A stretch of DNA of 64,000 nucleotides from contig CACYHE010000008.1 in the NCBI GenBank assembly GCA_902774185.1, forward strand, positions 84,978 to 148,977, written 5' to 3'. Each line of letters begins with the position of its first letter. The stretch's first letter is position 1. Of the stretch, positions 1,720-63,767 are shown in pieces. The stretch is from an uncultured Bacteroidales bacterium (GTDB lineage: Bacteria > Bacteroidota > Bacteroidia > Bacteroidales > Paludibacteraceae). A model generated the notes under the pieces. That model ran no database searches and was not told where the DNA came from. It saw only the letters and a program-made list of their open reading frames with translations. Made by a program: the position numbers and the translations under genes.

Positions 1720-1759
1720 TTTCCGCTTTTGTCTTTCGTCTTTCGACTTTTATCTTTCA
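1720..1759. repeat. degenerate tandem repeat, CTTTYGT units, in the susC leader
   Basis: On the plus strand the segment reads as successive variants of CTTTTGTCTTTCGTCTTTCG with period near 7. It lies between the susC-like start codon and its promoter. The same family in the other orientation occurs at 21048-21077 and 21841-21877. Confidence 0.7.
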
Positions 1760-1821
1760 TAACCTCACGCGTACGTATATTAGATATAGAATACGCACAC
1801 GCGCAAATACGAAAAATCGCG

Positions 1822-1852
1822 CAAAGGTACGACTTTTTTTTGATATGACCAA
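1822..1852 (-). promoter_or_regulatory. promoter of the susC-like gene
   Basis: On the minus strand TTG (1852-1850) is followed 20 bp later by TACCTTTG (1829-1822), matching the Bacteroidetes primary sigma consensus. The -33 part reads TTGGTCATATCA. Confidence 0.85.
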
Positions 1853-1891
1853 ATTTTTAGGAAAAAAAATGCAAAAAATCAACTTTTTGCG

Positions 1892-3305: not shown

Positions 3306-4091
3306 CTTTGCTTCATTCCAAAGGGCATCCATTTCTTCAAGACACATGTCTTTGAAATCTTTTCCTTGCTCTTTAGCGCGTTGCTCTATATAATTGAACC
3401 TGCGAATGAATTTAAGGTTCGTTTGCTCCAGCGCATTGTCAGGCTTGATCTTATATAACCGTGCTGCATTGATGAGCGCAAACATCAGGTCTCCGAACTC
3501 CTCACTAACTCGTTCATTCGTTAACTCGTTCACTCGTTCACTCGTTAATTCTTCCTCAAACTCGGCTATTTCCTCTTTTACTTTATCCCATACATCTTCG
3601 CGTTTCTCCCAATCAAAGCCCACATTGGCTACTTTGTCTTGGATTCGATAGGCTTTGACGAGACTTGGCAATGAATCAGGAATGCCACCGAGTACGGTTT
3701 TGTTTCCGCCTTTCTCTTTGAGTTTGACTTGCTCCCAGAGTTTACTTACTTCTTCGGCATTCTGTGCGGCTTCTTCGCCGTACACATGCGGATGACGGAA
3801 AACGAGTTTATCGCAGAGCCGGTTGCACACGTCGGCAATGTCAAAGTCATTGGTTTCACTACCCATCTTGGCATAGAAAACGACATGCAGCAATACGTCA
3901 CCGAGTTCTTTGCTGATCTCGTTCATGTCATGACGCGAGATGGCGGTTGCCAACTCATAGGTCTCTTCAATCGTGTTTTGCCGTAAACTGTCGAAAGTCT
4001 GCTTGCGGTCCCAGGGACATTTCTCCCGCAGGTCATCCATGATATCCAGCAATCGACCGAAAGCCTGTAATTGTTCTTCTCTACTGTGCAT
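3291..4091 (-). CDS. mazG: nucleoside triphosphate pyrophosphohydrolase MazG
   Basis: A 266-residue two-domain all-alpha NTP pyrophosphatase that hydrolyses (d)NTPs to NMP and PPi. The N-terminal MazG domain carries LREKCPWDRKQTF, EETYELATAI and ELGDVLLHVVFYAKM (the EExxE and ExxD magnesium ligands). The C-terminal domain ends with EEFGDLMFALINAARLYKI. The ATG at 4091 (MHSREEQ) is preferred over an upstream TTG at 4118; it overlaps the lpxH stop by 11 bp, suggesting translational coupling. Between the two domains, a tandem repeat (3505-3550, TCGTTCAC-like units) encodes ELTSERVNELTNERVSE, so the variable inter-domain helix has been replaced or extended by repeat sequence. The 3' end is shared with the tRNA terminator. 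Confidence 0.95.
   Translation of the reverse strand: MHSREEQLQAFGRLLDIMDDLREKCPWDRKQTFDSLRQNTIEETYELATAISRHDMNEISKELGDVLLHVVFYAKMGSETNDFDIADVCNRLCDKLVFRHPHVYGEEAAQNAEEVSKLWEQVKLKEKGGNKTVLGGIPDSLPSLVKAYRIQDKVANVGFDWEKREDVWDKVKEEIAEFEEELTSERVNELTNERVSEEFGDLMFALINAARLYKIKPDNALEQTNLKFIRRFNYIEQRAKEQGKDFKDMCLEEMDALWNEAKKNGL
3505..3550. repeat. in-frame ACTCGTTC tandem repeat inside mazG
   Basis: Plus strand reads CTAACTCGTTCATTCGTTAA, then CTCGTTCACTCGTTCACTCG; units are 8-9 bp. On the coding strand it gives the linker LTSERVNELTNERVSEE. Confidence 0.75.
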
Positions 4092-5320: not shown

Positions 5321-5357
5321 TAAATCGTCCAATCGTAAATCGTTAAATCGTAAATTT
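5321..5357 (+). repeat. AATCGTAAAT pre-start repeat before htpG
   Basis: Three to four copies of a 9-10 bp unit (AATCGTCC, AATCGTAAAT, CGTTAAATCGTAAAT) end a few bases before the htpG ATG. The same unit, same orientation, precedes nusA, infB, the GT4 gene and mutS2. Confidence 0.8.
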
Positions 5358-7312: not shown

Positions 7313-9164
7313 ATGAAACTATCGGAAATTAAACAAGTCATTGGCGATATCGCGGCCGTAAGAGGTGACGATGATCTGGAGATCAAACATCTGCTGACAG
7401 ATAGTCGGCAGTTGGGTGCAGAGCCGGAGAAAACATTGTTCTTTGCCATTAAGACGGAGAAGAACGACGGCGCAAAGTATATCCCGGAGTTGGAGGCGAA
7501 GGGTGTGCAGGCATTTGTAACCGGCAACGCGTTGGAAGCCTTGCAGGCACTGGCAGCTTACGTACGTTCGCAGTTTAAGGGTACGGTCATCGGTATCACG
7601 GGTTCGAACGGGAAGACGGTCGTTAAGGAATGGTTGTACCAACTCCTCAAAGACGACTATACCGTCATTCGAAGTCCAAAATCGTATAATTCCCAAATAG
7701 GTGTGCCGCTGAGCGTTTGGCAATTAACAATGTCAAACAACTTCAAACAACCTCAAACAACCTCAAACAACAAACCAGTTCTGGCAATCTTCGAAGCGGG
7801 GATTTCTGAGCCCGGAGAGATGGAGAAGTTGGAGAAGATCATTCGCCCGACAATCGGTGTGATTACGTATATCGGTCACGAGCACGATGAGAATTTTGAG
7901 TCGCTGGAACAAAAACGGGCTGAGAAGATGAAGCTCTTCATGCATTCCGAGAAGGTCATCGAAGATCCTACACATCAGAACGTGCGTACCTGTGCGGCAG
8001 TTATGCGGGCATTGGGTTACGATGAAGAGACTATCGCTGCTCGAATCCTTCAGCAAACGCATGAAACGGTTCTTAAAGTGAACCTTTCGGCACTGGTGGA
8101 TAATGTGCGTTATTTCCGTTCGAAACTCAAACCGACGACCAAGCTGACCTGCATGGTGAAAGCTTTTGCCTACGGTGCCGGAAGTGTAGAAGTAAGTAAG
8201 GCGTTGCAGGCTTCGGGACTTGTGGATTATTTGGCAGTAGCGGTGGCTGACGAAGGAGTGGAACTACGTCGTGCCGGTATCACCTTACCGATCATCATTA
8301 TGGATCCGGAGGTGGCGGCGATGGACTTGATCTTGGAGAATAACTTGGAACCGAACGTCTATAGCCATCAGTCTTTGAAGACCGTTATTGCGGCAGCACA
8401 AGCGAAGGGATTGGAGTATGTACCGATTCATATCAAGATCGATTCGGGTATGCACCGACTTGGTTTTTACAAGGAAGATATGCCTTGGTTGATCGACCGT
8501 CTGACGCATCAGAAAGCGGTGCGGGTGGCATCTGTCTTCTCGCATTTGGCAGGATCTGACGAGGCACAGTTTGATGACTTCACGCTTTCGCAGATCAAGT
8601 ATTTTGATGCTTGTGCCGAAGAATTGAAGAAAGGGCTAACGATTTCAAACGATTTCAAACAATCTCAAACAATTTCAAACGGCGAAGCCATCCTCAAGCA
8701 CATCTGTAATTCCGCAGGAATTGAGAGATTTGCTGAGTATCAATATGATATGTGCCGTTTGGGTATCGGTCTGTACGGTTTCTCGTTTGCGGGAGCCCGA
8801 CTGCGCAATGTGTGCACGTTGGAGACAACCATCCTTTCCGTCAAAACCGTTAAAGCGGGTGAGACGATTGGTTACGGTCGTCATACCACGCTTAGCGAAG
8901 ACCGCACGATCGCAGTTATTCCTATCGGCTATGCCGATGGTTTTGATCGCCGCTTCTCCAATTACGGGGGCGAAGTATGGGTGCGTGGTAAACGTTGTCC
9001 GGTGGTAGGTAACGTGTGCATGGACCAAGCGATGGTGGATGTCACCGGCGCAGATGCCCGACCCGGCGATATCGTCGAAGTGTTCGGAGAACACATGCCG
9101 CTTCAAGAACTTGCCGATAAACTCGGAACGATTACATATGAAATTTTAACCTCAGTAAGTCGCC

Positions 9165-9193: not shown

Positions 9194-9947
<754 letters not shown>

Positions 9948-11030: not shown

Positions 11031-11094
11031 TTGTATTATATACGGAGTGTGCCGAAAATCCGCTAAAGAGTAGGAGAAATACACTATATGTAAT

Positions 11095-15094: not shown

Positions 15095-16282
15095 TTAGAC
15101 CCGCTCGGCGTAGAAAAGGGTAGGTTTGCCGGCAACACGGCAACCGATAATGAAAACTGTACCTCCATCTTTGAGGTGCAGTTTTTTCTTGAGAGCCTCA
15201 GGTGACAATGGATAATTGCGCGTCAATACGTTCGCATTGGTGATTTGTAATTTGTGATTTGTGATTTGCTCCGTAATGCGCCATATACGACCGGGAAAGT
15301 CCTCTATTAATTGCTCCGAACAATAAAGATGGGTATTGACATCTAATTTTTGAAGACCAAATCGCTGCGCTACCAACTTGTACGCGCCGGCCTTTAATAT
15401 CGCAGAATTTGGTTCATAAAGAAACCCACCATTAAGCAAAGCGTCACCATTCATCAATAAACAATCTCTTTCATCCTCTTTGGTGAAGACGAACGCTTGG
15501 TCTTTTTTGTCAAGATCTATCGCCGTTATTTGTCCCGTACCGCCGCTTAATAGCAATAACTCTTTTACTTCGTTCTTGATGGCGACCACATAAATATCCC
15601 AAATTAATTGACAATTGACACTTGACAATTGACAAATTGCTTGCGTCAAGTCCAACATGGGAGAGAGTTTGATCATCAACCGTTTGCCGTGTTGGAGCAG
15701 AGTAGGGAGTAGTTCGACTACATTCGGTGTGCAATCTTCGAGACGAAAGACTTTACCACCGTGACTATCTCGTCTTGCAGGGTCTATGAAAATAAGGTCG
15801 TAGCCCCTCCCGACCTCCCCCGTGAGGGAGGAGAGAAACACTTCAGCGGTACAATTATGAATCGTAATAGAGCCTACCCCCATCCCCTTCCTGTAGGGAA
15901 GTGAGAAGTTGTGCGAAGCAATTCTACATAATTCCGCATTCTGCTCGACGTAGTCGGTGTGCTCAAATTGTTCGCTTAAGAAATAGGTATCAACTCCGTA
16001 GCCTCCTGTTAGATCCACAAAATTTGAAACTTGAAATTTGAAATTTGCACGGCTCAGCCGATCGATAGAAATTAGCGAAGCTTTGTAGCGTGCAGCGAGT
16101 TCGGAGGAACACTGTTCGCAGCTAAGGCGAACGGGGTACCACCAATCGGGAATAGAGGCAAAGGTGGGCAACTTATCCGCTGTCCGTTCGCGACCTTCGA
16201 CTTGCTGAAGGAACCACCGCCATTCGTCGTCGCTGAGGTGCTTGTATTTAGAGCGTTGTAACGCTAAATCTTCAACCTTCAC
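15095..16282 (-). CDS. class I SAM methyltransferase, THUMP-like/PG_1098 type
   Basis: A 395-residue protein with SAM motif I VDLTGGYGVDTYFLS near residue 89, an acidic motif II and the motif IFIDPARRD near residue 165, then a C-terminal region ending LHLKDGGTVFIIGCRVAGK, the layout of Bacteroidetes THUMP-like domain methyltransferases of unknown (probably RNA) substrate. It starts with GTG at 16282 in a GTGA overlap with the SpoIID-like gene. Three repeat segments are translated inside it: NFKFQVSNF (16018-16048), QLSSVNCQL (15604-15639) and ITNHKLQITNAN (15237-15268). All lie in loops between core motifs. Last gene of a four-gene operon. Confidence 0.85.
   Translation of the reverse strand: MKVEDLALQRSKYKHLSDDEWRWFLQQVEGRERTADKLPTFASIPDWWYPVRLSCEQCSSELAARYKASLISIDRLSRANFKFQVSNFVDLTGGYGVDTYFLSEQFEHTDYVEQNAELCRIASHNFSLPYRKGMGVGSITIHNCTAEVFLSSLTGEVGRGYDLIFIDPARRDSHGGKVFRLEDCTPNVVELLPTLLQHGKRLMIKLSPMLDLTQAICQLSSVNCQLIWDIYVVAIKNEVKELLLLSGGTGQITAIDLDKKDQAFVFTKEDERDCLLMNGDALLNGGFLYEPNSAILKAGAYKLVAQRFGLQKLDVNTHLYCSEQLIEDFPGRIWRITEQITNHKLQITNANVLTRNYPLSPEALKKKLHLKDGGTVFIIGCRVAGKPTLFYAERV
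15237..15268 (-). repeat. in-frame CAAATCACAAATTACAAATC repeat in the methyltransferase
   Basis: Eight to nine bp units, read on the coding strand, encode QITNHKLQITN. Same family as the C-terminus of the 53164 gene and the GT2 linker at 18465-18500. Confidence 0.8.
15604..15639 (-). repeat. in-frame CAATTGTCAA repeat in the methyltransferase
   Basis: Plus strand reads TTGACAATTGACACTTGACA then ATTGACAA; coding strand gives ICQLSSVNCQLI. Confidence 0.8.
16018..16048 (-). repeat. in-frame CAAATTTCAA repeat in the methyltransferase
   Basis: Plus strand AATTTGAAACTTGAAATTTG then AAATTTG; codes for NFKFQVSNF just before SAM motif I. Confidence 0.75.
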
Positions 16283-17325
16283 TCTACAATCTTCAATTGA
16301 GTATTATGGTAATAATACGAAAGTATTTCTTCGTACTTCATTCCTTCGGACGCCATAACGGCTGCTCCTATTTGACAGAGTCCTGCTCCGTGACCCCATC
16401 CGTGACCTATAAGGGTGAATGTTGAAGGTTGAATGTTGAATGATTTTTCAACTTCAAACCAGGAACTATATAGACAGGATTTCGAAAGCCAATATCGGAT
16501 TTTCAGTTCTTTGCCGATGATCTCCGTGTGTTTGGTTCCGACGATCTTAAGGCTGTCGATACGTCCTGAGGCACCCCGATGAAGGGGAATGAGGTCGATG
16601 ATATCTCCGAAGTCGATGCCGGACTTGGTGCGTACTATCTCGCTGAGCTCTTCTTGCGTATAACTCACTTTCCAATCCCTGAAATCCTTGGTTTCCTGAT
16701 CGTAGTCATTGAGTACGAGTCGCAGCACTTTCGGCGATGGAGACTTGCAATAATCGCAATTCACCGATTGGATATACGGCACGTCGATGTCTTCCCAACA
16801 AGTACGCCAGATCTCCGTTCGCCCACCGCAACACTTGTAATACCGGCAGTCGCAGACCGCATCACCGTACATTAGTACTTGACCTTGGGTTGCCCGCACG
16901 GCTTCCACAGCCCGTTCATTCATTCTGCGAAGTCCTTCGTAGCGCTGACAGTGATCATCGGCACAGACATCAAAATCATTTACGATTTGTCCATTTACCA
17001 TTTGTCCGTGTGGTTTGGCAGCGATAGCTCTCATCGCCCAACTGCGACTGATCACCGCGTGTGCTTTGAGCAGTTCCATCGGACTGTTGGCGTTCATCTC
17101 AGACGAGATAACCGAACACAAGTAGTCTTCCAAATCAATCGTATTGATAGCGGTTTGGGTACCATCGGCATTGTTGCGTATTTCCAAAGAACCTGCGAAC
17201 TCTTGGTCTTCATGTCTGTCCCAATGAAAACCAATACCGATACGTACATTCTTTAGAATGAACGTCTTCTCCTTTTGCTCAAATTCAATCTTTGGCGCCG
17301 TTAATATGCCGACACGAATATTCAA
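16279..17325 (-). CDS. SpoIID/LytB-domain protein
   Basis: A 348-residue protein with the SpoIID signature EDYLCSVISSEMN followed by LLKAHAVISRSWAM (near residues 65-95) and the C-terminal motif GHGWGHGAGLCQIGA (near 305), in the order of amidase enhancer/lytic transglycosylase SpoIID, which acts on denuded peptidoglycan glycan strands. Four cysteines (CDCRYYKCCGGRTE) are typical of the Bacteroidetes form. No signal peptide is visible. The start is TTG at 17325, which is itself part of a GTTTGAA repeat unit (17320-17359); the next methionine is far inside the domain. Two more repeats are translated: GQMVNGQIVND (16977-17009) and SFNIQPSTFT (16413-16455). Overlaps the methyltransferase gene by 4 bp. 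Confidence 0.9.
   Translation of the reverse strand: MNIRVGILTAPKIEFEQKEKTFILKNVRIGIGFHWDRHEDQEFAGSLEIRNNADGTQTAINTIDLEDYLCSVISSEMNANSPMELLKAHAVISRSWAMRAIAAKPHGQMVNGQIVNDFDVCADDHCQRYEGLRRMNERAVEAVRATQGQVLMYGDAVCDCRYYKCCGGRTEIWRTCWEDIDVPYIQSVNCDYCKSPSPKVLRLVLNDYDQETKDFRDWKVSYTQEELSEIVRTKSGIDFGDIIDLIPLHRGASGRIDSLKIVGTKHTEIIGKELKIRYWLSKSCLYSSWFEVEKSFNIQPSTFTLIGHGWGHGAGLCQIGAAVMASEGMKYEEILSYYYHNTQLKIVE
16413..16455 (-). repeat. in-frame GAATGTTGAA repeat in the SpoIID-like gene
   Basis: Plus strand GGTGAATGTTGAAGGTTGAA followed by TGTTGAATGATTTTTC. It encodes FNIQPSTFTLI directly before the GHGWGHG motif. Confidence 0.75.
16977..17009 (-). repeat. in-frame ACAAATGGTAAATGGACAAA repeat in the SpoIID-like gene
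   Basis: Coding strand yields GQMVNGQIVNDF. Same family as the post-stop element found after nusA, infB, batC and the 52378 lipoprotein gene. Confidence 0.8.
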
Positions 17326-17359
17326 ACTACTTCAAACAAAGTCAAACTATTTCAAACGA
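17320..17359 (-). repeat. CAAAC-family repeat spanning the GT2 stop and the SpoIID-like start
   Basis: Plus strand: ATTCAAACTACTTCAAACAA, AGTCAAACTA, TTTCAAACGAG (10-bp units). The TTG start (17325) of the SpoIID-like gene and the stop (17347) of the GT2 gene are both inside it. Confidence 0.85.
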
Positions 17360-18693
17360 GCTTGCAGTTCCCAAGAACGCAAACGATCTTTGTACCAGTT
17401 ATTGCGGTTCATGGCGACGATGTCGCAGTTGGCATCGGAGTTATCTTCCCAGCGACGGCAGTTATATACGACGTCGTAGATACGACCGATGGGGTAGTCA
17501 CGCGAGATACGCAAACCTACCGCATAGTCCTCACCGTACTTGGTGGTCGGATAATTGATGGTGCGCAAAAGCGGTACGTAGAAGCCACGTGGCGCACCCA
17601 GACCATTGATACGCAAGGCGTTGTTACGTCCGTTGTAGTCAGTCCATTCCCGATGATCGATGACACCCGGAGGAAGGATCTCCCCTGCCATGTTGGTCAG
17701 TTGGTATGTACCGATGACCATTCCGTAATTACCCGATTCGAAACAATCTATGAAGCGTTGTACGGTGGTATCATCAAAATAGGTATCATCGCTGTCCAAC
17801 TGAATCGCATACTTACCGCAGCGCGGGTCGTGAATCGCTACATTCCAGTTACCGCCGATGGCATGCCAGGTCTTGTCCTGCGCAATATATATCAATTCAC
17901 CATTCGCATCATTAAGCGAAGCGTCACCATTCATCAATCCCTTAAGGATCTGGGCAGTGCCGTCGGTTGAGTTGTCATCGACGACGATGACATTGAAGGA
18001 GTAGGGTGCGCGCACTTTCTGATTCAGCGCGCTATGAATAGCGTCGGCTATCGTGCGTGCGCGATTCTTACAAGGAATAATCACGCTTGCCGTTACCGGA
18101 TAGTCTTCGGCTTTTGGCAACTCCTTATACACACCCGGTTTCAAGTACGCACCGATTCGTTTAAGGTGGGCCGTAACGCATTGTTCCATCTCGATTTGTA
18201 CGGCTCGATTGCGCGGATCGACATAGTCGAAGAGTTTTTCTCCGGACTTACGGGTGTCGGTCTCCACTTCGTAGTACAGGTACTCCGGTATATGTTCGAG
18301 TTTCTCGGCACGAAGACGAAGATCGTAGAGCCCTGCAAACTCATAGTCTGTGTCCATCTGGGCTACGAGGGCTTTGAGTTTGGCGGTATCCCACAGCAGT
18401 ACTGCACCGAAGTCAAAATCATCCCTTAAGGCGCCTATCTGGTAGTCAATCACAGGAGCCTCAACATTGGTAATTTGTGATTGGTCATTGGTGATTTTTT
18501 GGAAATGGTCGGCATAAACCATGGTTGCCCCGCTCATCTCCATGACCTGAATCATTCGTTCCTGTCCCAGATAGACCCATTCGATCTCTGGTTTGAGACA
18601 GATCATCGTATAAGGCGCTGAGGCTTTTTCGGCGATTTCCTTAATCGCTTTGGTCGAGCAAACTCTGCCCGGTAAATAGAAAGTATCAATCAT
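17347..18693 (-). CDS. family 2 glycosyltransferase
   Basis: A 448-residue protein. Residues about 1-195 are a strand/helix region of unknown role; from about 200 a GT-A domain follows with [32 protein letters not shown] and the DxD-type motif [11 protein letters not shown], then [19 protein letters not shown]. It should transfer a sugar from a nucleotide donor; acceptor unknown. No membrane segment, so cytosolic. A repeat at 18465-18500 encodes [11 protein letters not shown] in the N-terminal part. It overlaps the kinase gene by 4 bp (ATGA) and is followed by the SpoIID-like gene, so the operon combines sugar phosphorylation, glycosyl transfer and peptidoglycan-active functions. Confidence 0.88.
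18465..18500 (-). repeat. in-frame ACCAATGACCAATCACAAAT repeat in the GT2 gene
   Basis: Coding strand yields [15 protein letters not shown]. Same family as 15237-15268, 33054-33096 and 53222-53275. Confidence 0.8.
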
Positions 18694-19592: not shown

Positions 19593-19602
19593 TTTTTCGC
19601 TG

Positions 19603-21043: not shown

Positions 21044-21047
21044 TAGT

Positions 21048-48543: not shown

Positions 48544-51336
48544 TTATAATGCAAATCGAACGGTTATCTTCACGCCGTTTCGTCCCCAAGCCGGGATACG
48601 TCTACGTGCCTGTATCATATTTCCGTTGCCGTCCGGTACTTGGAACGGCAGTTCGTAGTCGTTATAGGTCAGACGGCGTACATAGTCGATACGGATGAAC
48701 TTGAAGATATTCTCAAATCCGGCAGTGATCTCCATATATGGCAGTTTACCGATAGGGGTAGAGGTGCGGAATCCGTCCAAGATATAACCGTTGGCATCGA
48801 AAGCTTTGCTGATATCGCCATCGGGCCAAGGAGTATGCGGGAACTCATACAGTCCTGTTCCGGTTTCCAAATAGGGGTTGTTCTTCTTGGTCAAACCGCC
48901 GTAGATACCGGAGAAGGAAACGACGCCACGCAGTTTGAGCTTGTTGATTCCCGGGATGCGGTTGAGGATCCAGCCTTTGAAATAATAGGTCATGTACAAA
49001 CCTACGTATTCATCCATCATGAACTCCATCGGTTTCATCTGGTTGAACGCACGTTGTGCCAGGAAGATACTGGTACTGCTCTGCGGGATGTAGAGGTGGG
49101 TGAACGGTGTCTTTTGCCAAACCATACCGGTCTGTACACGCATGTCGAGGTGCCCGAAGGCGGAGAACCAGAACCGCTTGTCGAAGAGGAACTCGGTGCG
49201 GTTATAGAGGAATCCGTCTCCGCCGTTATGACGGTCATCCAGGTACCCGACGTAGTGGGTCAGTTTGAAGGTCGGTGCATCTTTCTCCAAGGCGAACGGA
49301 CTCTCGATACCCATGCGGTCAATATAGACACGGCTACCCGGTGAATACTGCAGTTCGACGTATCCTTCGTAGTTCCGATAGGACTTGATATCGGTCGTGC
49401 TTGCGCTCCAAGTAGAGTCAGCGTTCATCATCCAGTTCATTCGGTTGTAGCGTAAAGCTCCGGCAGCTTCGTTGTTACTGAAATCAAAACCCGCCTTGAT
49501 GGACAGTTTGTTCCGCCATTCCTTCATGTAGTCCAGTTTGGCATGGAAGACATACTGGTCAAAACCCAGGGATGGCTTATTGATCGGTATAGACATCAGG
49601 ATGTGGTCACGCCGGATGACATCGGTCATCTGTCCGGGTTCCTCCACATCGTACTGTCCCGTCAGTTGGATATGATGCCTTAACCCGTCGTAGGGTTGGT
49701 TCTTATGCTTGTCGAAGGTCCAAACGAGCGTTCCGCTGTATTTGGGCCGCAGGTCGGTGGTACCGAAGGCTACGTAACCCCGGAAGAAGAACTGGTCATG
49801 CAGTTTGGCGGTACTGGTACCCCCCACACGGACACGGACACCTTCGAGCAGGTTCCAACTGACGAAGTTATAGATGGGTCCGAAGTCGAACTTACTAAGG
49901 TCCAAATCCTTTGCCGGTGTAGTAGCCACGAACTCCGAAGTGACGGCATTGACGGTTGCAATGGCACTGGCGATCTTGGGATTGTTCGTCATCTCGCCTA
50001 CCAACTCATATACCGAGTTTTCGTAGCGCGTCAAGGGTTCGGGACGCAAGGTATCCCATGCGGCTGCACCTAAACGGGCTGCTGTAGAGTCATTGGTCTC
50101 CACCTCATCGGCGGTCAGGCTGGAGAAGGTCTCCTTCGGTATCGGCGTGTCCAGATCCCAACCGGTGTAGATCTTGGTCTGCCGGGCTAACATACCCCGT
50201 TTATTATTCATGATATAGAACTTGGCGTAAGTCGTCGTGCGGTCGGGTGCCCAAAGGCCGTTCTCCAACTGCCGGTAACTATGCTCGACGGAGTAGTTGC
50301 TGACGAAGTTGAGGTTGATATCGGGCGGTACGTTGATGGCGTATTTCTTAAGCCGGAACGTACTATCGTTGACGATATAGAGGTGTCCGGTGAAACCGTA
50401 ACTCTCTGAGTTAACCGGCACGAAGGCAAGGTCGATACAGGGATAACCGTCCACCATGATCGTATCCATGATGTAATACTGATAGAACGTGACCGCCAGG
50501 GTAGAGGAGAGTGGGGATACGAAACGGTTGAACAGCAGGTTCATGTTGTTGTCGTTGATCTCCACATCCTTGAAGATGGCGTTGACGTTCTCTTGGAAAC
50601 TACCCTGGGAAACGAGGTCCTCCACACCGAAGATACGTTTCTTCTGCAGGATCTTCTTCTCTCGGTGCGGCTTACGCTGGTAGTACTCTTCGCTGATATG
50701 TTCCCGAAGCGAAATGGTGATATTGGGATAAACACCTGTTGTATCGATATATTTGCGTACAAACTGATAGTCTTTCCAGAAGGGTTTGTCCCAATTCACT
50801 TGGATGTTATCCAGTGCGAAGGACATACGGGAGTAGGTTTGTGCCGTGTATTGGTCCGCTGACTTGACGCAGAACGAGTCCTTATGCGCGATGACATTCT
50901 TGATGAGCTCGACGGCAGGGTTGCCTTTGCGTTTGTAATCGCGTTTGCGGTTCTTCGGCGTGACAACGATATCCTGCAGACCATAGACGTCGGGTGTCAT
51001 CTTGATCTTGACATCCTTACGGTTCTGCCCTTTGCGCAGCGTCAGCATCTCGGTTTTATAACCCAACATCTGGAAGTTAAGCGTGTTATATCCGGCGGTG
51101 TTACTGATGGTGAAATTACCGTCTAAGTCGGAGGTGGTACCTACCTCCGAAGCCACCATACCTTTGTTGGTGGTGGATTTGAGGAAGTAGATCTGTACGA
51201 ACGGCAAGGTCTCTCCCGTGTCGCCATCTACCACCACACCGGAGATACTTGTCGTCTGTGCTACTTCTTGTGCGTGAATAAGAGCACAGAATACAGAACA
51301 CAGAAGACAGACTACTATATGTTTGATAAATCTCAT
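48544..51336 (-). CDS. DUF5686 outer-membrane protein with CarboxypepD-regulatory-like domain
   Basis: A 930-residue exported protein. Signal peptide (FIKHIVVCLLCSVFCALIHA), then ISGVVVDGDTGETLPFVQIY, a CarboxypepD_reg-like domain at about 30-118, then the DUF5686 region (KGNPAVELIKNVIAHKDSFC near 140) and a C-terminal barrel of the Omp85/TamA-like type ending NGVKITVRFAL. Family members are outer-membrane proteins of unknown role common in Bacteroidetes. The signal peptide core LCSVFCAL is encoded by an ACAGAACACAGAAGACAGAC repeat (51287-51318). ATGA overlap with the DAHP synthase gene. Confidence 0.88.
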   Translation of the reverse strand: MRFIKHIVVCLLCSVFCALIHAQEVAQTTSISGVVVDGDTGETLPFVQIYFLKSTTNKGMVASEVGTTSDLDGNFTISNTAGYNTLNFQMLGYKTEMLTLRKGQNRKDVKIKMTPDVYGLQDIVVTPKNRKRDYKRKGNPAVELIKNVIAHKDSFCVKSADQYTAQTYSRMSFALDNIQVNWDKPFWKDYQFVRKYIDTTGVYPNITISLREHISEEYYQRKPHREKKILQKKRIFGVEDLVSQGSFQENVNAIFKDVEINDNNMNLLFNRFVSPLSSTLAVTFYQYYIMDTIMVDGYPCIDLAFVPVNSESYGFTGHLYIVNDSTFRLKKYAINVPPDINLNFVSNYSVEHSYRQLENGLWAPDRTTTYAKFYIMNNKRGMLARQTKIYTGWDLDTPIPKETFSSLTADEVETNDSTAARLGAAAWDTLRPEPLTRYENSVYELVGEMTNNPKIASAIATVNAVTSEFVATTPAKDLDLSKFDFGPIYNFVSWNLLEGVRVRVGGTSTAKLHDQFFFRGYVAFGTTDLRPKYSGTLVWTFDKHKNQPYDGLRHHIQLTGQYDVEEPGQMTDVIRRDHILMSIPINKPSLGFDQYVFHAKLDYMKEWRNKLSIKAGFDFSNNEAAGALRYNRMNWMMNADSTWSASTTDIKSYRNYEGYVELQYSPGSRVYIDRMGIESPFALEKDAPTFKLTHYVGYLDDRHNGGDGFLYNRTEFLFDKRFWFSAFGHLDMRVQTGMVWQKTPFTHLYIPQSSTSIFLAQRAFNQMKPMEFMMDEYVGLYMTYYFKGWILNRIPGINKLKLRGVVSFSGIYGGLTKKNNPYLETGTGLYEFPHTPWPDGDISKAFDANGYILDGFRTSTPIGKLPYMEITAGFENIFKFIRIDYVRRLTYNDYELPFQVPDGNGNMIQARRRIPAWGRNGVKITVRFAL
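51287..51318 (-). repeat. in-frame ACAGAAGAC-type repeat encoding signal-peptide residues
   Basis: Plus strand AGAATACAGAACACAGAAGA then CAGAC; coding strand gives VCLLCSVFC. The same units occur in mutS2 (63343-63363) and near 28680-28705. Confidence 0.65.
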
Positions 51337-52343
51337 TCCTGTTGTTTTAAACTCTCTTTATGAATGATTTCCCAAATACGTAGGGCAAAATCCCCTTTAT
51401 CTTTTATTCGCTCAACGATTTGTTGGTATCTCTCCGGTTGTAGCGGCGTGATATGATGTGCTTTCTTCCATTCGCCGATACGACGACTGACGTCCATACG
51501 TGCCGCTATCGTATCCCACAAGGCCTTGTCCAACTCATCTATCTCGGCGCGCAGCCAGGACAGTTCGGTGTTGTTTGATGTCGTTTGAGGTTGTTTGAGG
51601 TTGTTCGAAATGGTTAACGATGTCAAACCTTCAAACAAATTCAAACCATTCAAACTATCCGGCGTAATCTGCTGGGCATTATCCGATAAAGCTTTCTCCG
51701 GACAACAGTGTACTTCGATCATCGCGCCATCGAGACCCAATTCGGCTATCTTCTTGAGTAGCTCCGGTACTTGTGCGGCATCGCCGCTCATGTGACTGGG
51801 GTCAAGGAGCATGGGGACATCAGGACGAGCCGTTCGTACGTCATGCGCCATGGACCAGCAAGGTTGATGGTTACATCCCCGATGGACCGCCATCACCGGT
51901 AATCCGGTTTTCTCCAAACGCTCGATATTGCCGAGCCATAAGGCTGGGTCGGCGTTAACGGGGTTTTTGATTAGGACCGCCTTCCCATTATCGGTCTGTG
52001 CTCCAAGAGCGTCCGCTATCGCTTGTACGGCTATCGGGTTGGCACTTGTTCGTGCGCCTATCCAGAGATAGTCGATACCGGCTTTGCGGGCAGCGGTTAC
52101 ATGTTCAGGGGTGGCTACTTCGGTTGCCACCGGGATACCGAGGGTGTTTTTTACTTCCGCTAACCATTCCAGCCCCTCATCGCCTGCGCCTTGGTACGTG
52201 TCCGGGCGCGTACGCGGTTTCCATACGCCTGCGCGAAAAATAAAAGGAACACTGCACTGCGCCTTAATGGCACGTGCAGTATCCATCACCTGTTCGCGAC
52301 TCTCTGCGCTACAGGGACCGAATATATAGGTCTGGTTTGCCAA
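51333..52343 (-). CDS. DAHP synthase fused to type II chorismate mutase
   Basis: 336 residues. The N-terminal DAHP synthase (type I-beta, KDO8PS-like) shows FGPCSAES, RAGVWKPRTRPDTYQGAG, IKNPVNADPALW, VHRGCNHQ, LLDPSHMSGD and EVHCCPEKALSDNAQQ, about residues 8-240; the C-terminal AroQ mutase is LSWLRAEIDELDKALWDTIA to the end. Joins erythrose-4-phosphate with PEP and converts chorismate to prephenate, first and branch-point steps for aromatic amino acids. Between the domains an inverted CAAAC element is translated (LTSLTISNNLKQPQTTSNN). It begins with TTG at 52343, right at the end of a repeat, and lacks the usual residues before GPCSAE. Confidence 0.94.
   Translation of the reverse strand: MANQTYIFGPCSAESREQVMDTARAIKAQCSVPFIFRAGVWKPRTRPDTYQGAGDEGLEWLAEVKNTLGIPVATEVATPEHVTAARKAGIDYLWIGARTSANPIAVQAIADALGAQTDNGKAVLIKNPVNADPALWLGNIERLEKTGLPVMAVHRGCNHQPCWSMAHDVRTARPDVPMLLDPSHMSGDAAQVPELLKKIAELGLDGAMIEVHCCPEKALSDNAQQITPDSLNGLNLFEGLTSLTISNNLKQPQTTSNNTELSWLRAEIDELDKALWDTIAARMDVSRRIGEWKKAHHITPLQPERYQQIVERIKDKGDFALRIWEIIHKESLKQQE
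51569..51657 (-). repeat. inverted CAAAC-family element forming the DAHPS-CM linker
   Basis: On the coding strand: GTTTGAATGGTTTGAATTTG units, a core CGTTAACCATTTC, then CAAACAACCT units. It matches the arrangement in the rimP leader. Confidence 0.88.
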
Positions 52344-52344
52344 A

Positions 52345-52377
52345 TAGTAAATGGTAAATGACCAAATGGTAAATGGC
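52345..52377 (-). repeat. post-stop TTTACCATT element between the 52378 lipoprotein and DAHPS genes
   Basis: Minus strand reads ATTTACCATTTGGTCATTTA then CCATTTACTATTTG, starting within a few bases of the lipoprotein stop and ending at the DAHPS TTG start. Confidence 0.85.
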
Positions 52378-59404: not shown

Positions 59405-59662
59405 ATTTATTTTATTTTTTTTTGAGTTTTTCTCGATTTATTTGCGTATATTTGCATTTTTTTCAATTTGCACGAAATTCTGAACAGGTAATAATTAGGT
59501 AAAAAGTAGGGAATAATATGCTAATAAGTACGTGTGAGAATTTTTCGTCAGAAATTCATCATCTTACGTAGTTGATACGTAGTTGATACGTAATTGATAC
59601 GTAATCGACCCGTCGAAGTTGAGGAAAATTGGTACAAATTACATCTTTTTTACCTCAAAAAT
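59405..59662. other. gene-free spacer between divergent genes
   Basis: Part of the 382-bp interval 59349-59730. Very A+T-rich; contains the 11-bp repeats at 59565-59608 and nothing else recognisable. Confidence 0.65.
59565..59608. repeat. four 11-bp direct repeats
   Basis: TACGTAGTTGA twice, TACGTAATTGA, TACGTAATCGA. Same theme as 15046-15078. Confidence 0.88.
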
Positions 59663-59730: not shown

Positions 59731-60825
59731 ATGAAAAGAATCAGTTTCATTGTTTTGGCGGTTGTGATGGCAATGAGCGTGGCAGCGCAGAAACAGAACC
59801 AGACCTATCTGGATTATATCGAAGAATGGAAGAATACCGCCATCCTGCAGCAGGAGGAGTACGGCATTCCGGCATCTATCACGATGGCGCAGGCTTTGTT
59901 GGAGTCCGCAGCGGGTCAGAGTGAGTTGGCGCGTAATGCGAAGAACCATTTCGGCATCAAGTGTACGAGTGAGTGGTTCGGCGGCGTGTATTACTACGAC
60001 GATGACAAGAAAGACGAGTGTTTCCGTCAGTACGCCAATGCGGCAGAGAGTTTCAAGGACCACTCCCGTTTCTTGCAGCGTCCCCGTTACTCAACCTGTT
60101 TTGAGATCGCCGTGGATGACTATGAGGGTTGGGCGTTCCGTTTGCGCGAATGCGGTTACGCCACCGACAAGCACTATGCCTCCAAGTTGATCCGCTTGAT
60201 TGAGGATTACCGTCTGGACACCTTGGGTAAAGGCGCTGCGGTCGGAGCATACGATCCGGACGGAGAGCAGGATATCGTAGCTACGGAACCGACGGCAGAG
60301 AGCCCGAAAGCGGAGCAGCAACCGGTACCGCAAGACCAGCAGTTACCGCCGGATAATCAGAAACCGAAGAAGGCCGTTGTAGTACATCGTAACGAACCGA
60401 TCATGGTGATCAAGAACGATCCCGAACCCGAATATGTGGCTCCGAAGACCGCCCGTCAAGAGCGGGACAGCTTCCTATTGATGCACCCCAAGAAACGCTT
60501 CAACGGCGTCAACTACGTGGAGGCACGGGAAGGCGATACGTACGCCAATGTGGCATTCCGTCTGAATGTGCGGGAACGGGATCTGAGAGAGTATAACGAC
60601 GCTTTGGGTCGTGACTTGGCAGTGGGTGACCGTATCTACATGGCGCCGAAGAAATCATCCGGCACGAAGGATTATGTATGGTCCTATACCGGTTTGTCGT
60701 TGTGGAAACTGAGTCAGGACGAAGGTGTCACCATCGAGGCGATACAGAAACTGAACGGACTGGATCAGACGGTACGCGTGTTCCGCACACGGCAGAAGAT
60801 CTACCTCAAGAAAGGTGAAAGGTGA
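59731..60825 (+). CDS. secreted glucosaminidase-domain protein with LysM
   Basis: 364 residues: signal peptide MKRISFIVLAVVMAMSVAAQ, glucosaminidase domain at about 25-170 with the catalytic-type GIPASITMAQALLESAAGQS and AKNHFGIKC, a Pro/Gln-rich linker, a segment with VEAREGDTYANVAFRLNVRE (LysM-like) and a C-terminal LysM (GLSLWKLSQDEGVTIEAIQK). It cleaves peptidoglycan glycan strands while bound by LysM. ATG 59731 follows the promoter at normal distance. The last codons KKGER and the stop are inside the GTGAAAG tandem repeat. Confidence 0.92.
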   Translation: MKRISFIVLAVVMAMSVAAQKQNQTYLDYIEEWKNTAILQQEEYGIPASITMAQALLESAAGQSELARNAKNHFGIKCTSEWFGGVYYYDDDKKDECFRQYANAAESFKDHSRFLQRPRYSTCFEIAVDDYEGWAFRLRECGYATDKHYASKLIRLIEDYRLDTLGKGAAVGAYDPDGEQDIVATEPTAESPKAEQQPVPQDQQLPPDNQKPKKAVVVHRNEPIMVIKNDPEPEYVAPKTARQERDSFLLMHPKKRFNGVNYVEAREGDTYANVAFRLNVRERDLREYNDALGRDLAVGDRIYMAPKKSSGTKDYVWSYTGLSLWKLSQDEGVTIEAIQKLNGLDQTVRVFRTRQKIYLKKGER

Positions 60826-60887
60826 AAGGTGAAAGGTGAAAGGTGAGAGGTGAAAGGTGAAAGGTGAAAGGTGAAAGGTGAAAGGAA
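60813..60887 (+). repeat. GTGAAAG tandem repeat across the stop and start of two genes
   Basis: About ten 7-bp units (AAAGGTG). They contain the TGA stop of the glucosaminidase gene and the GTG start (60878) of the DUF721 gene; each unit offers both a purine-rich site and a GTG. Confidence 0.92.
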
Positions 60888-61199: not shown

Positions 61200-61368
61200 A
61201 TTAGTACTGATGCGATAAAATTAGAAAAAAACAATAAAAACCCTTTCGAATGATTTAGATGTTGCACATCTTACGTACTTTGCTACTAAAACCTACTTAA
61301 AAGTAAACTTTTAGATAGAGCTTTTACTACCAAATTACGTACTCCAGAGTGTATAAATCATTCGAAAG
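61200..61368. repeat. copy 1 of an element with 15-bp inverted repeats (MITE-like)
   Basis: ATTAGTACTGATGCGATAA (61200-61218), then CTTTCGAATGATTTA (61243-61257) and its exact reverse complement (61354-61368), with TACTAAAACC and TTTTAGATAG blocks between. The 280-bp interval 61166-61445 holds this element and the AATCGTAAAT repeat, no gene. Confidence 0.75.
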
Positions 61369-61409
61369 AAAAAACATAAAAAATATTTTTTGTTTCAAAT
61401 CGAAAAATA

Positions 61410-61445
61410 AATTGTAAAATCGTAAATCGATAAATCGTAAATCAT
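61410..61445 (+). repeat. AATCGTAAAT pre-start repeat before mutS2
   Basis: AAATTGTAAAATCGTAAATC, then GATAAATCGTAAATCATT, running directly into the TTG start. Confidence 0.85.
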
Positions 61446-63767
61446 TTGTATTATCCGGAGAACATAGAGCAGAAGATAGACTTCGTGGAGATACGCGAAG
61501 AGTTGGGTCGTCGTTGTGCGTCGGGGTTGGGGCGTGAGCGGGTGGCTGCGATGCAGATGGAGACGGAATTTGAGACGGTGCAAGGTCTGTTACTGTTAAC
61601 CGACCAGATGCGTCTCGCGCAAGCGGACCCGATGTTGACGTTCCCGCGCGGAGACATCCACGATATGCGGGAAGCCGTGTCGCGTATCCGTATCGAGGGA
61701 CTGTTCTTAGACGAAGCCGAACTGGACGACCTGCGTAAGACGCTCGCCTATGCGGTTGAGTTAGAGCGATTCTTCGCTGCGCTGGATAGCGCCAAGTATG
61801 CGCTGCTAAAGGAACTAGGCGGCCTAGGGAGCCCGGGCATCCTGGGAAGTCTGGTGGATGAGATAGACCGCATACTCGATCGTTACGGACGGTTAGCGGA
61901 CCATGCTTCGCCGGAGTTAGCCCGTATACGGCGGGAGTTAGTGAACCTGCAGGGCAGCGTAGGACGCACTTTAGCATCTATCTTACGTCAAGCTAAAGCA
62001 GACGGGTTCGTAGATGCAGACGCAGCTCCTACGCTTCGCGAAGGACGACTGGTGATTCCCGTTTCCCCCGGCTACAAACGCAAGATAGGCGGTATCGTAC
62101 ATGACGAGTCCGCAACGGGTAAGACCGTCTTCATCGAACCCCAACAAGTGGTGGATGCCAATAATCATATCCGGGAGTTGGAAGGCGCGGAACGACGGGA
62201 ACGGGTACGTATCCTGCAAGCCATCACGGACCGTCTGAGACCCAACACCGAAGCCATCCTGATGAGTCAGAAGATGTTGGCGGAGGTGGATTTTCTCAAT
62301 GCCAAAGTGTCGTTGGCGAACACGCTGCATGCGATCCGTCCGGAGATCGTAAACGAACCCCTTATCGACTGGAGCGAGGCGCGACACCCGGTGCTTTGGA
62401 TGCATTATACACCGCAAGGCAAGACGGTGGTTCCGCTCTCGATACGTTTGCGTGGCGAAGAGAACCGGATGCTCGTCATCAGCGGCCCCAACGCAGGCGG
62501 TAAGTCGGTATGTCTGAAGACCGTGGCGATATTGCAATACATGCTCCAATGCGGTTTGTTAGTGCCGGTAGCGGAGCAGAGTAGAGCGGGACTGTTTGAC
62601 CGCCTGATGATCGATATCGGCGACGAGCAGTCAATACAGGATGAACTTTCCACTTATTCGTCTCACCTAAAGAATATGAAAGCCTTCTTGCGTCAAGCCG
62701 ATGACCGCACGTTGGTGTTAGTCGATGAGATGGGAACGGGTACCGAACCCTTGTTAGGCGGTGCGATCGCTGAGGCCATCTTACGGGAGTTGGTGAACCG
62801 TCGTGTGTTCGGTGTGATCACGACCCATTATACCAACCTCAAGCATTTTGCGGAGCAGACGCAGGGCGTTGTCAACGGCGCGATGCTGTACGACCGAGGG
62901 GCGATGCGTCCGCTGTTTCAGTTATCCATCGGTCAAGCCGGCAGTTCGTTCGCCATCGAGATAGCGCGGCAGACGGGATTGAGCGAAGAGATCATTCAGT
63001 ACGCCACCGAGTTGGTGGGCGAAGAACATATCGATTACGATAAGCAGTTACAAGATATCGCACGGGATAAGCGGTATTGGGAGAACAAACGGCAAGCTAT
63101 CCGACAGAAAGAGAAGGCATTGGAGGAACGTATCGCGCAGTACGACGAGCAGATGAAAGGTATCAAAGCCAAGAAGAAAGAGGTGCTGGAGGAAGCGCGT
63201 CAACAGGCGGAACAACTGTTGCAACAGTCCAATGCGACTATCGAACGTACCATCCGTGAGATCAAAGAGGCGAAGGCCGATAAGGAGAAGACGAAGAAGG
63301 CGAGGGAGAGAGTGGAGACGCTCAAAGAGAGCGTACAGAAGACAGCGCACAGCGCACAGACCGAATTACCTAAGAAGAAGGTGATGAAGGATTTCAGCGA
63401 ATTGAGGAAGCTGAAGGGGGATCTTGGGAATCCGAGTAATCCGAGTAGTCCGAAGAGTCGGAGTAATCCGACCTCGATGATCGCGCATAGTCGCACGATG
63501 CGTTTTGAGCGGACGCTGGATCTGCGAGGCTATCGTGCTGATGAGGCGCTGGAGAAACTGATCGCTTACATGGACGATGCGCAGATGGTAGGAGCCGGAG
63601 AAGTGACAATCCTTCATGGAACGGGTACGGGCGCGCTCAAACAATTGACACGCGACTACCTCAATGACCTCAACCGCCAACGTCGCAAACGAGGGAAGGT
63701 GGCACTTGAGTTCGGGGATGGCGATGTCAATCATGGCGGAGCAGGGCTTACAATTGTACAATTGTGA
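61446..63767 (+). CDS. mutS2: endonuclease MutS2
   Basis: 773 residues. MutS core and clamp domains, ATPase domain with Walker A VISGPNAGGKSVCLKT (near 346) and Walker B LVLVDEMGTGTEP (near 422), a long coiled coil (IRQKEKALEERIAQYDEQMK to KTKKARERVETLKES; about 550-640) and a C-terminal Smr nuclease domain (LDLRGYRADEALEKL; ILHGTGTGALK). Acts in suppression of recombination or rescue of collided ribosomes. It begins with TTG 61446 (YYPENIEQKIDF matches the family start; an in-frame TAA at 61431 excludes earlier starts). Repeats are translated at 63343-63363 (TAHSAQT) and 63424-63472 (NPSNPSSPKSRSNPTS) before the Smr domain. Confidence 0.94.
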   Translation: MYYPENIEQKIDFVEIREELGRRCASGLGRERVAAMQMETEFETVQGLLLLTDQMRLAQADPMLTFPRGDIHDMREAVSRIRIEGLFLDEAELDDLRKTLAYAVELERFFAALDSAKYALLKELGGLGSPGILGSLVDEIDRILDRYGRLADHASPELARIRRELVNLQGSVGRTLASILRQAKADGFVDADAAPTLREGRLVIPVSPGYKRKIGGIVHDESATGKTVFIEPQQVVDANNHIRELEGAERRERVRILQAITDRLRPNTEAILMSQKMLAEVDFLNAKVSLANTLHAIRPEIVNEPLIDWSEARHPVLWMHYTPQGKTVVPLSIRLRGEENRMLVISGPNAGGKSVCLKTVAILQYMLQCGLLVPVAEQSRAGLFDRLMIDIGDEQSIQDELSTYSSHLKNMKAFLRQADDRTLVLVDEMGTGTEPLLGGAIAEAILRELVNRRVFGVITTHYTNLKHFAEQTQGVVNGAMLYDRGAMRPLFQLSIGQAGSSFAIEIARQTGLSEEIIQYATELVGEEHIDYDKQLQDIARDKRYWENKRQAIRQKEKALEERIAQYDEQMKGIKAKKKEVLEEARQQAEQLLQQSNATIERTIREIKEAKADKEKTKKARERVETLKESVQKTAHSAQTELPKKKVMKDFSELRKLKGDLGNPSNPSSPKSRSNPTSMIAHSRTMRFERTLDLRGYRADEALEKLIAYMDDAQMVGAGEVTILHGTGTGALKQLTRDYLNDLNRQRRKRGKVALEFGDGDVNHGGAGLTIVQL
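63424..63472 (+). repeat. in-frame CCGAGTAAT repeat in mutS2
   Basis: Nine-bp units: AATCCGAGTAATCCGAGTAG, then TCCGAAGAGTCGGAGTAATC. Linker LGNPSNPSSPKSRSNP before the Smr domain. Confidence 0.88.

Follow-up and report, generated by a model that had tools for sequence, protein, structure and literature searches.

Dispersed short tandem arrays in gene gaps and in-frame enzyme loops of a Paludibacteraceae genus

How do short tandem repeats come to lie both in the gaps between bacterial genes and, in frame, inside the genes of core enzymes? The question is raised by a 64-kb stretch of DNA (here called the window; G000:C8:84978-148977) from an uncultured member of the Paludibacteraceae, whose metagenome-assembled genome (MAG), G000, comprises 2.19 Mb in 35 contigs and is 87% complete. 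An earlier note on this stretch had counted more than forty loci of degenerate repeats with 7-11-bp units, had judged simple slippage inadequate to explain them, and had proposed that a lineage-specific process spreads or maintains them. We found 52 merged tandem-repeat loci, 2,210 bp in total, at a Tandem Repeats Finder (TRF) score of at least 40, against a mean of 0.8 and a maximum of 3 in 20 dinucleotide shuffles; at a score of at least 50 there are 30 loci against 0.1. We narrowly favour the reading that these arrays belong to many families of small dispersed elements, which are copied as blocks, trimmed by slippage, exchanged between genomes and filtered by selection into gaps and loops.

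The arrays are abundant beyond the window. In twenty 20-kb stretches (400 kb) sampled from the same genome, 132 loci score at least 50, or 33 per 100 kb and 1.47% of bases, and one shuffle gave none. Their smallest period is 7 in 58 loci, 8 in 12, 10 in 9 and 11 in 9. Exact runs of at least 14 period matches, counted over 464 kb of this genome, number 6.7 per 100 kb for period 7, 1.7 for period 8, 1.3 each for periods 10 and 11, and 3.0 each for periods 14 and 21; there are none of period 4, 5, 6 or 13 (periods 1-3 lay outside the count). Periods 9 and 12 gave 2.2 and 0.6, part of which may be codon repeats, and protein-coding low complexity (periods 9, 12, 18 and 21) was left out of the phenomenon. 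The unit lengths first described are therefore present, but they are not evenly spread: the spectrum is discrete and clearly led by 7, followed by 8, 10 (the TCAAAC family) and 11, and includes composites of 14-16, 21 and 22. The vocabulary is wide (146 distinct units among 235 unit-array records), and most arrays are 25-60 bp long. Unit k-mers exceed the expectation of a 5th-order Markov model, as the earlier note's proposed check required: the 12-mer CTTTCAACTTTC has 18 copies at 12 loci (0.14 expected), AATCGTAAATCG 16 at 11 (0.14) and ACAGAACACAGA 14 at 11 (0.05). De novo seeding from high-copy 12-mers yielded seven array families and four promoter-like families; the latter we take, from general knowledge of Bacteroidetes promoters, to be promoters, and they were set aside.

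Did each array arise where it stands, or were arrays copied? The most direct evidence comes from a composite element of about 60 bp in the gap between the DUF58 and MoxR genes. Queried with the 91 bases at 34740-34830, the genome gave 44 matches, simple arms included. Its core, AACTAGACGACTTCTC, was found with at most 3 mismatches of 16 at 12 places: in nine of the 20 stretches fetched for the query, in the window and in two sample stretches. Eleven of the 12 sit between array arms, and the remaining one (L033) looks like chance; by eye, the right arm has exactly four 7-bp units in 8 core copies. The available collection comprises 178 species of the genus, of which individual surveys covered 25, 61, 121 or 178 genomes. 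A 23-base core pattern (at most 2 mismatches) occurs in 31 of 121 genomes and its reversed control in none of the 121. Matches number 30 in G137, 16 in G069 and 11 in the window's own genome, and 0 in G015, G046, G003 and G048, the four nearest by murF-alr DNA. In 20 stretches of G137 fetched for a core match, 22 core copies lie between AACTCTAAACT-type arms. Another such core, of the ATACGGCTTGCCGATCGCGCCC..GGGCAGAGAACT type with variants, was seen between the same AACTCT/AACTTTC arms at L310, L313, L327, L132 and in the SpoIID loop of G015, where it is in frame, the one such case.

Simple arrays also share the order of their variant units. Among 217 arrays, imperfect 22-mers are common to 33 pairs, against 11.3 (maximum 18) when unit order was permuted and 11.4 (maximum 19) when columns were permuted; for imperfect 24-mers the figures are 22 pairs against 10.1 and 9.9 (maximum 17). 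Array pairs on different stretches of one genome share a 13-mer in 424 of 22,060 cases (1.92%), compared with 0.71% between genomes. This sharing shows no useful effect of distance (2.1-3.5% for pairs within 10 kb, 1.9% between stretches) and no strand bias (180 direct, 202 inverted), and local copying at the replication fork was rejected on these grounds. Slippage alone is insufficient for the arrays, because of the non-repetitive core, the unit order common to loci, the same-genome 13-mer excess and the coding arrays that consensus units would close. On this last point, an in-frame stop is predicted in 20 of the 74 usable internal coding arrays (79 in total) if every unit equals the consensus.

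The AAAAATT family separates copies in genes from copies in gaps. A uniform AAAAATT array has stops in all frames, and one T-to-G change in a copy opens one sense frame. The exact stop-free 26-mer has 55 matches in 17 of 121 genomes, with none for its reversed control; the uniform 26-mer has 57 in 16 of 121, and its reversed control hit several genomes because the sequence is nearly symmetric. With genes called by a gene finder trained on the window's genome, 29 of the 30 stop-free loci examined (of 55) fall in predicted coding sequences (CDS), each in sense orientation and in the one frame that encodes IKNEKLKI, and one is intergenic. By eye, these 29 span about 23 gene contexts; the ends of variant copies, also judged by eye, vary by roughly one unit. 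Among the 30 uniform loci examined (of 57; two are shifted hits of another), none lies within a CDS, 11 are intergenic and 19 lie over gene ends. Stop codons explain the single reading frame of the stop-free variant but not its near-absence from gaps, which suggests either that copying of this variant runs mainly between genes or that it is retained in genes alone. A survey of another 2.87 Mb, outside the loci fetched by pattern, which includes repeated, outgroup and all-N stretches and in which some rows are the same gene in two species, found 31 AAAAATT-family arrays: 13 in CDS in sense, none antisense and 18 outside CDS. There are several coding-competent AAAAATT lineages, not one.

Where do the arrays lie? 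Gene calls came from a simple codon-usage gene finder, which overlooks some genes and may set starts wrongly (coding density 0.857). Among 212 loci scoring at least 45 in the window and sample, 93 are in CDS, 39 lie over gene 3' ends, 7 over 5' ends and 73 in gaps. Per base, gaps are nevertheless far denser in arrays: those of period 7-11 make up 21.3% of bases in co-directional gaps shorter than 150 bp and 0.90% of CDS, with 3.8% of longer co-directional, 6.4% of divergent and 8.3% of convergent gaps. The two compartments draw on common words: for 48 of 72 CDS arrays a 13-mer recurs in an array outside CDS on a different stretch, against 3-8 of 72 for shuffled arrays. The principal arrays of the window are as follows, with the strand where one was assigned.

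1718-1758: 7/21-bp array (TCTTTCG) in the leader of an open reading frame (ORF) that we take to be SusC-like; ORF start about 1694 by eye, the gene finder placing the array just inside the ORF
3506-3551, minus: 8-bp array in frame within mazG, among the 20 of 74 that consensus units would close
5321-5355: AAATCGT element of 7+8 structure immediately 5' of HSP90 (htpG); similar variant order at L024 7456/4597 and L021 7505
7733-7771, plus: 10-bp TCAAACAACC array, MurF-Alr loop 1
8638-8681, plus: 10-bp AACGATTTCA array, MurF-Alr loop 2
9566-9611, plus: 7-bp CTCAACT array, ABC ATPase loop
15042-15076: 11-bp GTAATGATTAC array, gap
15236-15268, minus: 7-bp CAAATCA array, methyltransferase loop
15606-15635, minus: 7-bp CAATTGT array, methyltransferase loop
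16020-16047, minus: 7-bp AAATTTC array, methyltransferase loop
16267-16297, minus: 7-bp array spanning the SpoIID/methyltransferase junction
16411-16442, minus: 7/14-bp array, SpoIID-like gene
16977-17007, minus: 15-bp (7+8) array, SpoIID-like gene
17320-17357, minus: 10-bp TCAAAC-family array, gene junction
18466-18496, minus: 7/14-bp array, GT2 gene
19559-19593: 15-bp CATTTACCATTT array, divergent gap
21045-21074, plus: AAAGTCG array immediately 3' of a gene end; variant order seen at other loci
22733-22809: two TCAAAC-family arrays in opposite orientation, between genes and over the next gene's start
23257-23283, plus: AAATCGT array over a gene 3' end
24597-24671: ATGTACCATTG and AATGAACAAATA arrays 5' of the IF-2 gene
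27415-27468: AATGAACAAATA / AATGGTACAT array, convergent gap
28677-28717, minus: 14-bp CAGAACA-family array, batD
28795-28828, minus: 9-bp array, batD
29637-29681, minus: 7/21-bp array, batD
30093-30127: AAATGGT/AAATGACC array 5' of batD; variant order as at 52342
32862-32917, minus: 7/24-bp array, 3' end of ORF 32857-33810
33058-33091, minus: ACCAATG array within ORF 32857-33810
34758-34821, plus: composite element that fills the DUF58/MoxR gap, with an AACTTTC arm before core AACTAGACGACTTCTC and an AACTCTC arm after it
35859-35938: CTCATCCCA and CTTCCTATAG arrays
36996-37043: TCAAACAAC-family array, ORF 36402-37169 (gene status uncertain)
44355-44397: CAATCGT array 5' of 44404
47691-47737, minus: ACTCTTA array filling the intercistronic gap between two ORFs
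51276-51311, minus: CAGAACA-family array, 5' end of a DUF5686 ORF (start codon uncertain)
51569-51605, minus: TCAAACAAC array, DAHPS-chorismate mutase (DAHPS-CM) gene
51623-51655, minus: TCAAACCAT array, DAHPS-CM gene
52342-52376: AAATGGT/AAATGACC array at the DAHPS-CM start
59565-59603: 11-bp TACGTAGTTGA array, gap
60810-60885, plus: 11-copy GAAAGGT array over the 3' end of a glucosaminidase/LysM gene; a 121-base query has 38 matches genome-wide
61408-61443, plus: AAATCGT array immediately 5' of mutS2
63429-63471, plus: 9-bp (codon-multiple) array within mutS2, possibly ordinary low complexity

Of the genes first said to carry arrays in frame, this holds for mazG, murF-alr (two arrays), the ABC ATPase, the PG_1098-type methyltransferase (three), SpoIID (two), GT2, BatD, ORF 32857-33810, DAHPS-CM and MutS2; support elsewhere is weak or uncertain. 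The MutS2 linker is in frame, but it is weak or codon-multiple low complexity, as in IF-2. ORF 36402-37169 does contain its array, but the gene itself is doubtful, with no Pfam match and missed by the codon-usage gene finder. The arrays in the giant ORF at 53164 are weak, with scores of 31-36. The long array at 30260-30411 is of another kind, a Q-rich coding repeat in a TPR protein. Between about 10,000 and 14,930 lies an AT-rich block (36-38% GC) with no array at a score of at least 40. It is missing from the syntenic contig of G046, whose matches reach window position 9947 and resume at 15094 with 87 bases between, and it has the look of a recent acquisition that has yet to gather arrays.

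A few observations stand apart from the short-word arrays. Upstream (5') of ORF 36402, positions 35971-36078 hold 2.8 copies of a 40-bp unit with a CCGCAATTTTATGCGG hairpin. A long uniform promoter-like motif of the TTGTACCTTTGCA type occurs at many loci (L174 5618-5680 and 17930-17998; L180 15860-15935; 12-mer families 1, 2, 7 and 10) and makes up the bulk of the short cross-species DNA matches printed. Rfam families in the window are limited to one tRNA and one DUF805b motif, the latter at 11042-11076 inside the AT-rich block (36.8 bits, cut-off 35.6). The fold of one 11-mer array with a promoter-like stretch is unremarkable (z -1.23).

What do the same protein loops look like in other species? 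Of 61 genus genomes searched with MurF-Alr, 60 gave a match, which at least in G001 and G009 was confined to a distant Mur-ligase-like stretch. An alignment of 30 loci, the window's included, has two hypervariable loops with near-invariant flanks. Loop 1 is built from TCAAACAAC in the window, AAAGTCG in G022, CAGCCTT in G042, AAAAATT in G060, ACAATGT in G062, CACAATTCACAATG in G050 and CAACCGACAGT in G049; G051 has a short palindrome, and in G046, G015, G048, G003 and G006 the loop is plain, with six residues. Loop 2 has a plain form of nine residues (KAGLNYPII type) and a repeat at a TRF score of at least 30 in 21 of 81 sequences (a second set, 80 loci plus the window). In an AlphaFold model from 30 sequences, with a mean predicted local distance difference test (pLDDT) score of 78.7 and a predicted template modelling (pTM) score of 0.54, the inserts at residues 143-151 and 446-457 fall below pLDDT 50 and are coil except for 446-448, and four other stretches also fall below 50.

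Seven further in-gene arrays (ABC ATPase; methyltransferase, three; SpoIID, two; GT2) were compared with eight relatives for the ABC gene and six for the rest. G046 is plain at all seven loops, and at five of the seven other repeats clearly occupy the same loop in other species. The methyltransferase gene matches 99 of 178 genomes at a strict cut-off, and its loops at 15236 and, in part, 15606 were surveyed across species. At 15236, seven of 30 species have a plain 15-residue segment and 23 have other inserts, mostly repetitive by eye, some of them common to two or three species. The linkers are thus not conserved across orthologues. Short palindromic inserts (CCCTCC..AAGGGG type) and AGACCGCTTCGCTGAA-type inserts were also seen in loops that hold tandem arrays elsewhere, namely the murF-alr loops of L084, L089, L091, L092, L224 and L247 and the methyltransferase loops of G022, G052, G085 and G093.

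The arrays are enriched in the genus and mostly confined to this lineage, with G034 as the exception. The nearest 80 named records are MAGs labelled Paludibacteraceae, Bacteroidales or Bacteroidia. Many of these come from the ruminant gut, a number from horse and a single one from pig, and two Candidatus Colicola species are among them. Period 7 is foremost in most sampled genus members, although G011 has 8 and 11 without 7 and G017 has little 7. Period-7 runs of at least 11 matches number 16.2 per 100 kb in the window's own genome, 19.6 in G015, 17.0 in G191, 35 in G051 (40 kb) and 4-5 in G046, G014 and G053. In 12 genomes of the same order outside the genus the figure is 1.3, N-run artefacts counted in, over 389 kb printed of which about 4.8 kb is entirely N. 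Masked or gapped N runs raise the exact-run counts in G029, G033 and G042, and the all-N contigs fetched (one each from G029 and G033, two from G004) make the real sample smaller than the printed lengths. A GAAAGGT query matches 18 of 41 genomes, 17 of 25 in the genus plus G034. This last genome belongs to another family of the order, and its five GAAAGGT-array matches speak against strict confinement to the genus; it has 21 TRF loci in 50 kb, mostly of other periods, in a sample that is partly a stretch picked for its GAAAGGT match. Together with the block copying and the plain loops, this enrichment upholds the idea of a lineage-specific process. None of the outcomes that the earlier note named as refuting it came about: the unit k-mers are in excess, orthologues do not conserve the linkers, and the inserts recur in MAGs of many separate projects.

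How do arrays change between genomes? Few are comparable between close genomes, and one 94% pair bears on copy number. Four arrays are unchanged between G160 and G108 in stretches of 92-94% identity, and a 36-bp array is identical in G187, G160 and G108 at apparently one site. In such stretches other arrays are present in one genome only (G108 at 6295; G187 at 9899 and 10106; G184 at 9167). At the methyltransferase locus identity is 95% for G053/G191, 92% for G160/G108 and 91% for G184/G187. We rejected the possibility that G160/G108 and G191/G053 are sister species, because most longer matches of 20-kb queries are 64-82% identical. For the two pairs checked, this local identity against 64-82% elsewhere points to allele exchange, and both the loop alleles and the gene block from murF-alr to spoIID appear to be exchanged between species by recombination. 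Near the ABC ATPase array, G160:C59 has at about 833 (L172) a 25-bp tandem duplication that G108 lacks; its length is not a multiple of three, and it may be a frameshift or an assembly error.

How, then, might such blocks arise and persist? The elements would be about 25-60 bp long, mostly of degenerate 7-, 8-, 10- or 11-bp units, some with a unique core. Host recombination or repair would copy them to new sites by template switching, driven by homology or microhomology, leaving ragged ends and requiring no dedicated transposase. Slippage would then alter unit number, homologous recombination may swap filled loop alleles between species, and selection would remove insertions except in gene gaps, at gene ends and in surface loops where one frame is open. 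Array position and frame support the selection filter; the copying mechanism we infer, favouring host functions because RVT_1 and Y1_Tnp were not found in the window's 87% complete genome and because sharing is neither local nor strand-biased.

Several results weigh against this account. The 13 in-gene AAAAATT arrays are opened by different codons (TCA in 5, GAA in 5, GAG in 1, TAC in 2, CAA never), which means that independent origins occur. The composite core is present in some near relatives (1 match in G042, 6 in G021). When perfectly periodic stretches are counted, little excess of shared unit order is left, and at no length from 18 to 28 nt does it clearly pass the permutation maxima; at 22 nt, for instance, 58 pairs compare with maxima of 57 and 58. 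Most of the pooled same-genome excess comes from the window's genome, which supplies 382 of the 424 pairs; the same-genome to between-genome ratio is above 1 in eight of 13 genomes, 0.9 in one, and four have no sharing pair, all in small samples. The nearest relatives differ by about 18-25% in DNA and no insertion was caught at base-pair resolution, so that insertion followed by drift is indistinguishable from replacement. Finally, G017 and G067, 94% identical over 18.5 kb, differ at one array by exactly one 7-bp unit, and slippage therefore acts too.

A bolder form of the block-copying account would have genus-wide, translatable, tandem-built mini-elements in separate lineages, stop-bearing for gaps and stop-free with a fixed frame for genes. 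These would spread between genes and species without a recognisable transposase and would time and again put short peptide cassettes, often recurrent ones, in place of surface loops in essential enzymes. We regard this as possible but put it below an even chance.

Could a dedicated but unrecognised mobiliser, such as a transposase, an integrase or an RNA-templated enzyme, move the blocks, as is assumed for miniature inverted-repeat transposable elements (MITEs) and Rickettsia palindromic elements? The composite core that is patchy across the genus and amplified by lineage, its similar copies in G137 and the in-frame stop-free sub-family would all fit. The search for such an enzyme covered RVT_1 and Y1_Tnp, with other transposases, Ku/LigD, Cas1 and further enzyme families outside it, in incomplete MAGs. 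RVT_1 has no match in G000 and is present in three of ten genus genomes; Y1_Tnp has none in G000 and none over the cut-off in the ten, with two below it. Mobilisers of the reverse transcriptase and RAYT types were rejected, neither being found in the window's 87% complete genome. By eye, the printed copies show no terminal inverted repeats or fixed ends, no systematic scan having been made. We think a dedicated mobiliser unlikely.

Replication slippage with biased unit lengths and words, acting independently at each locus under selection for an open frame, would account for the one-unit difference between G017 and G067, for a vocabulary partly common to genomes (0.71% of array pairs) and for the several frame-opening solutions; heptamer overrepresentation is also known elsewhere (PMC4692102). 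Against it stand the non-repetitive core common to many loci and genomes, the variant unit order common to unrelated loci, the lack of exact 4-6-bp runs, the identical stop-free 26-mer in some 23 gene contexts, and the quarter or so of in-gene arrays (20 of 74) that uniformity would close. Independent slippage is already disfavoured for the composite families and is improbable for the arrays at large.

It is very improbable that selection favours the arrays for a function, for example as spacers for translation or as terminators between genes and as flexible linkers that benefit the proteins. Their density in short co-directional gaps (21.3% against 0.90% of CDS) and the 19 of 30 uniform-array hits over a gene end point that way, but neutral insertions also survive best in gaps and loops, the same loop is plain or filled with unrelated words across species, and the MurF-Alr inserts have very low predicted confidence. 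An assembly or binning artefact can practically be dismissed although all the material is MAG-derived, for the loop inserts recur in MAGs of many separate projects (RUG, RGIG, UBA, SRR, horse, sheep), four arrays are identical in two different MAGs (G160/G108), and reading frames are intact.

How do the arrays in gaps and loops compare with known systems? Heterogeneous heptamer repeats are dispersed in other bacteria, as GGGAATC in Xanthomonas, GGGGA(C/T)T in Nostoc and the repeats of Calothrix; two Xanthomonas genomes have 186 and 183 heptamer loci, mostly of few copies (often four) and with an intergenic excess (PMC4692102). Our arrays resemble these in having degenerate 7-bp units at many dispersed loci (58 of 132 sample loci have period 7). 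They differ in their many words per genome, their additional units of 8, 10 and 11 and their lack of such a G-rich motif; moreover, the Xanthomonas and Nostoc repeats use few motifs and are mainly intergenic, whereas 93 of our 212 loci are in genes and loop words differ by species. TAACTGA direct repeats occur in Beggiatoaceae, cyanobacteria and five Bacteroidetes including Paludibacter; they are gap heptamers, some over stop codons, patchy by lineage, and their indels between close strains are mostly in 7-nt increments (PMC4679880). The location in gaps, the patchiness and the 7-nt copy-number steps are like ours. However, TAACTGA is one word, its Beggiatoaceae copies lie mostly just upstream of start codons and few ORFs have intragenic copies (PMC4679880), whereas in-frame copies in core enzymes are common here.

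Small elements fused in frame within conserved genes are known from the Rickettsia palindromic elements and the Neisseria Correia elements; Correia elements have an ORF-bearing 107-bp version in genes and a stop-bearing 155-bp version that is almost only intergenic (PMC2229807, PMC10969869). The two AAAAATT versions, in genes and in gaps, resemble the two Correia versions, and in-frame insertion into unrelated conserved genes is like that of the Rickettsia elements and translatable MITEs. Those elements have long stem-loops and terminal inverted repeats and measure 100-155 bp; ours are tandem arrays of 25-60 bp. PARCELs, tandem repeats in coding sequence that are believed to move from genome to genome as well as inside one, are 25-residue repeats in variable-number tracts of ORFs without assigned function (PMC2996958); ours are short inserts in core-enzyme loops. 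Like slippage microsatellites, our arrays show one whole-unit difference (G017 against G067); unlike them, they have no 4-6-bp runs in 464 kb and have a core and variant order common to loci. They also differ from REPIN/RAYT systems, with no Y1_Tnp in G000 or over the cut-off in ten genus genomes, and from retrotransposition by retrons, diversity-generating retroelements or group II introns, with no reverse transcriptase found in G000 (87% complete) and one in three of the ten. In the open-licence literature we found no description of such repeats in Paludibacteraceae or this genus. The earlier note knew of no formal description; this is only partly right, heptamer arrays (PMC4692102, PMC4679880) and in-frame mini-elements (PMC2229807, PMC10969869) both having been described. 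The phenomenon joins these two known kinds, and we did not find its core-enzyme scale described in these sources.

Why do these arrays matter? They make two questions testable: by what route tandem repeats of 7-11 bp originate and spread in bacteria when no mobiliser is known, and how essential proteins gain new loops and linkers. With 178 species, the genus allows gain, loss and exchange to be tracked at many orthologous loops, and the AAAAATT pair, with one version nearly restricted to genes and the other never within them among the loci examined, offers a direct handle on copying versus selection. There is also a warning for annotation: such elements can be the source of loop inserts, of recurrent peptides such as KIKNEKLKIKN and of fuzzy gene ends in these MAGs. 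Altogether, because the blocks fill gaps and the loops of essential enzymes, often with a different block in each species, our findings suggest that a mobile-DNA-like process keeps rewriting the genomes of these ruminant and horse gut bacteria.

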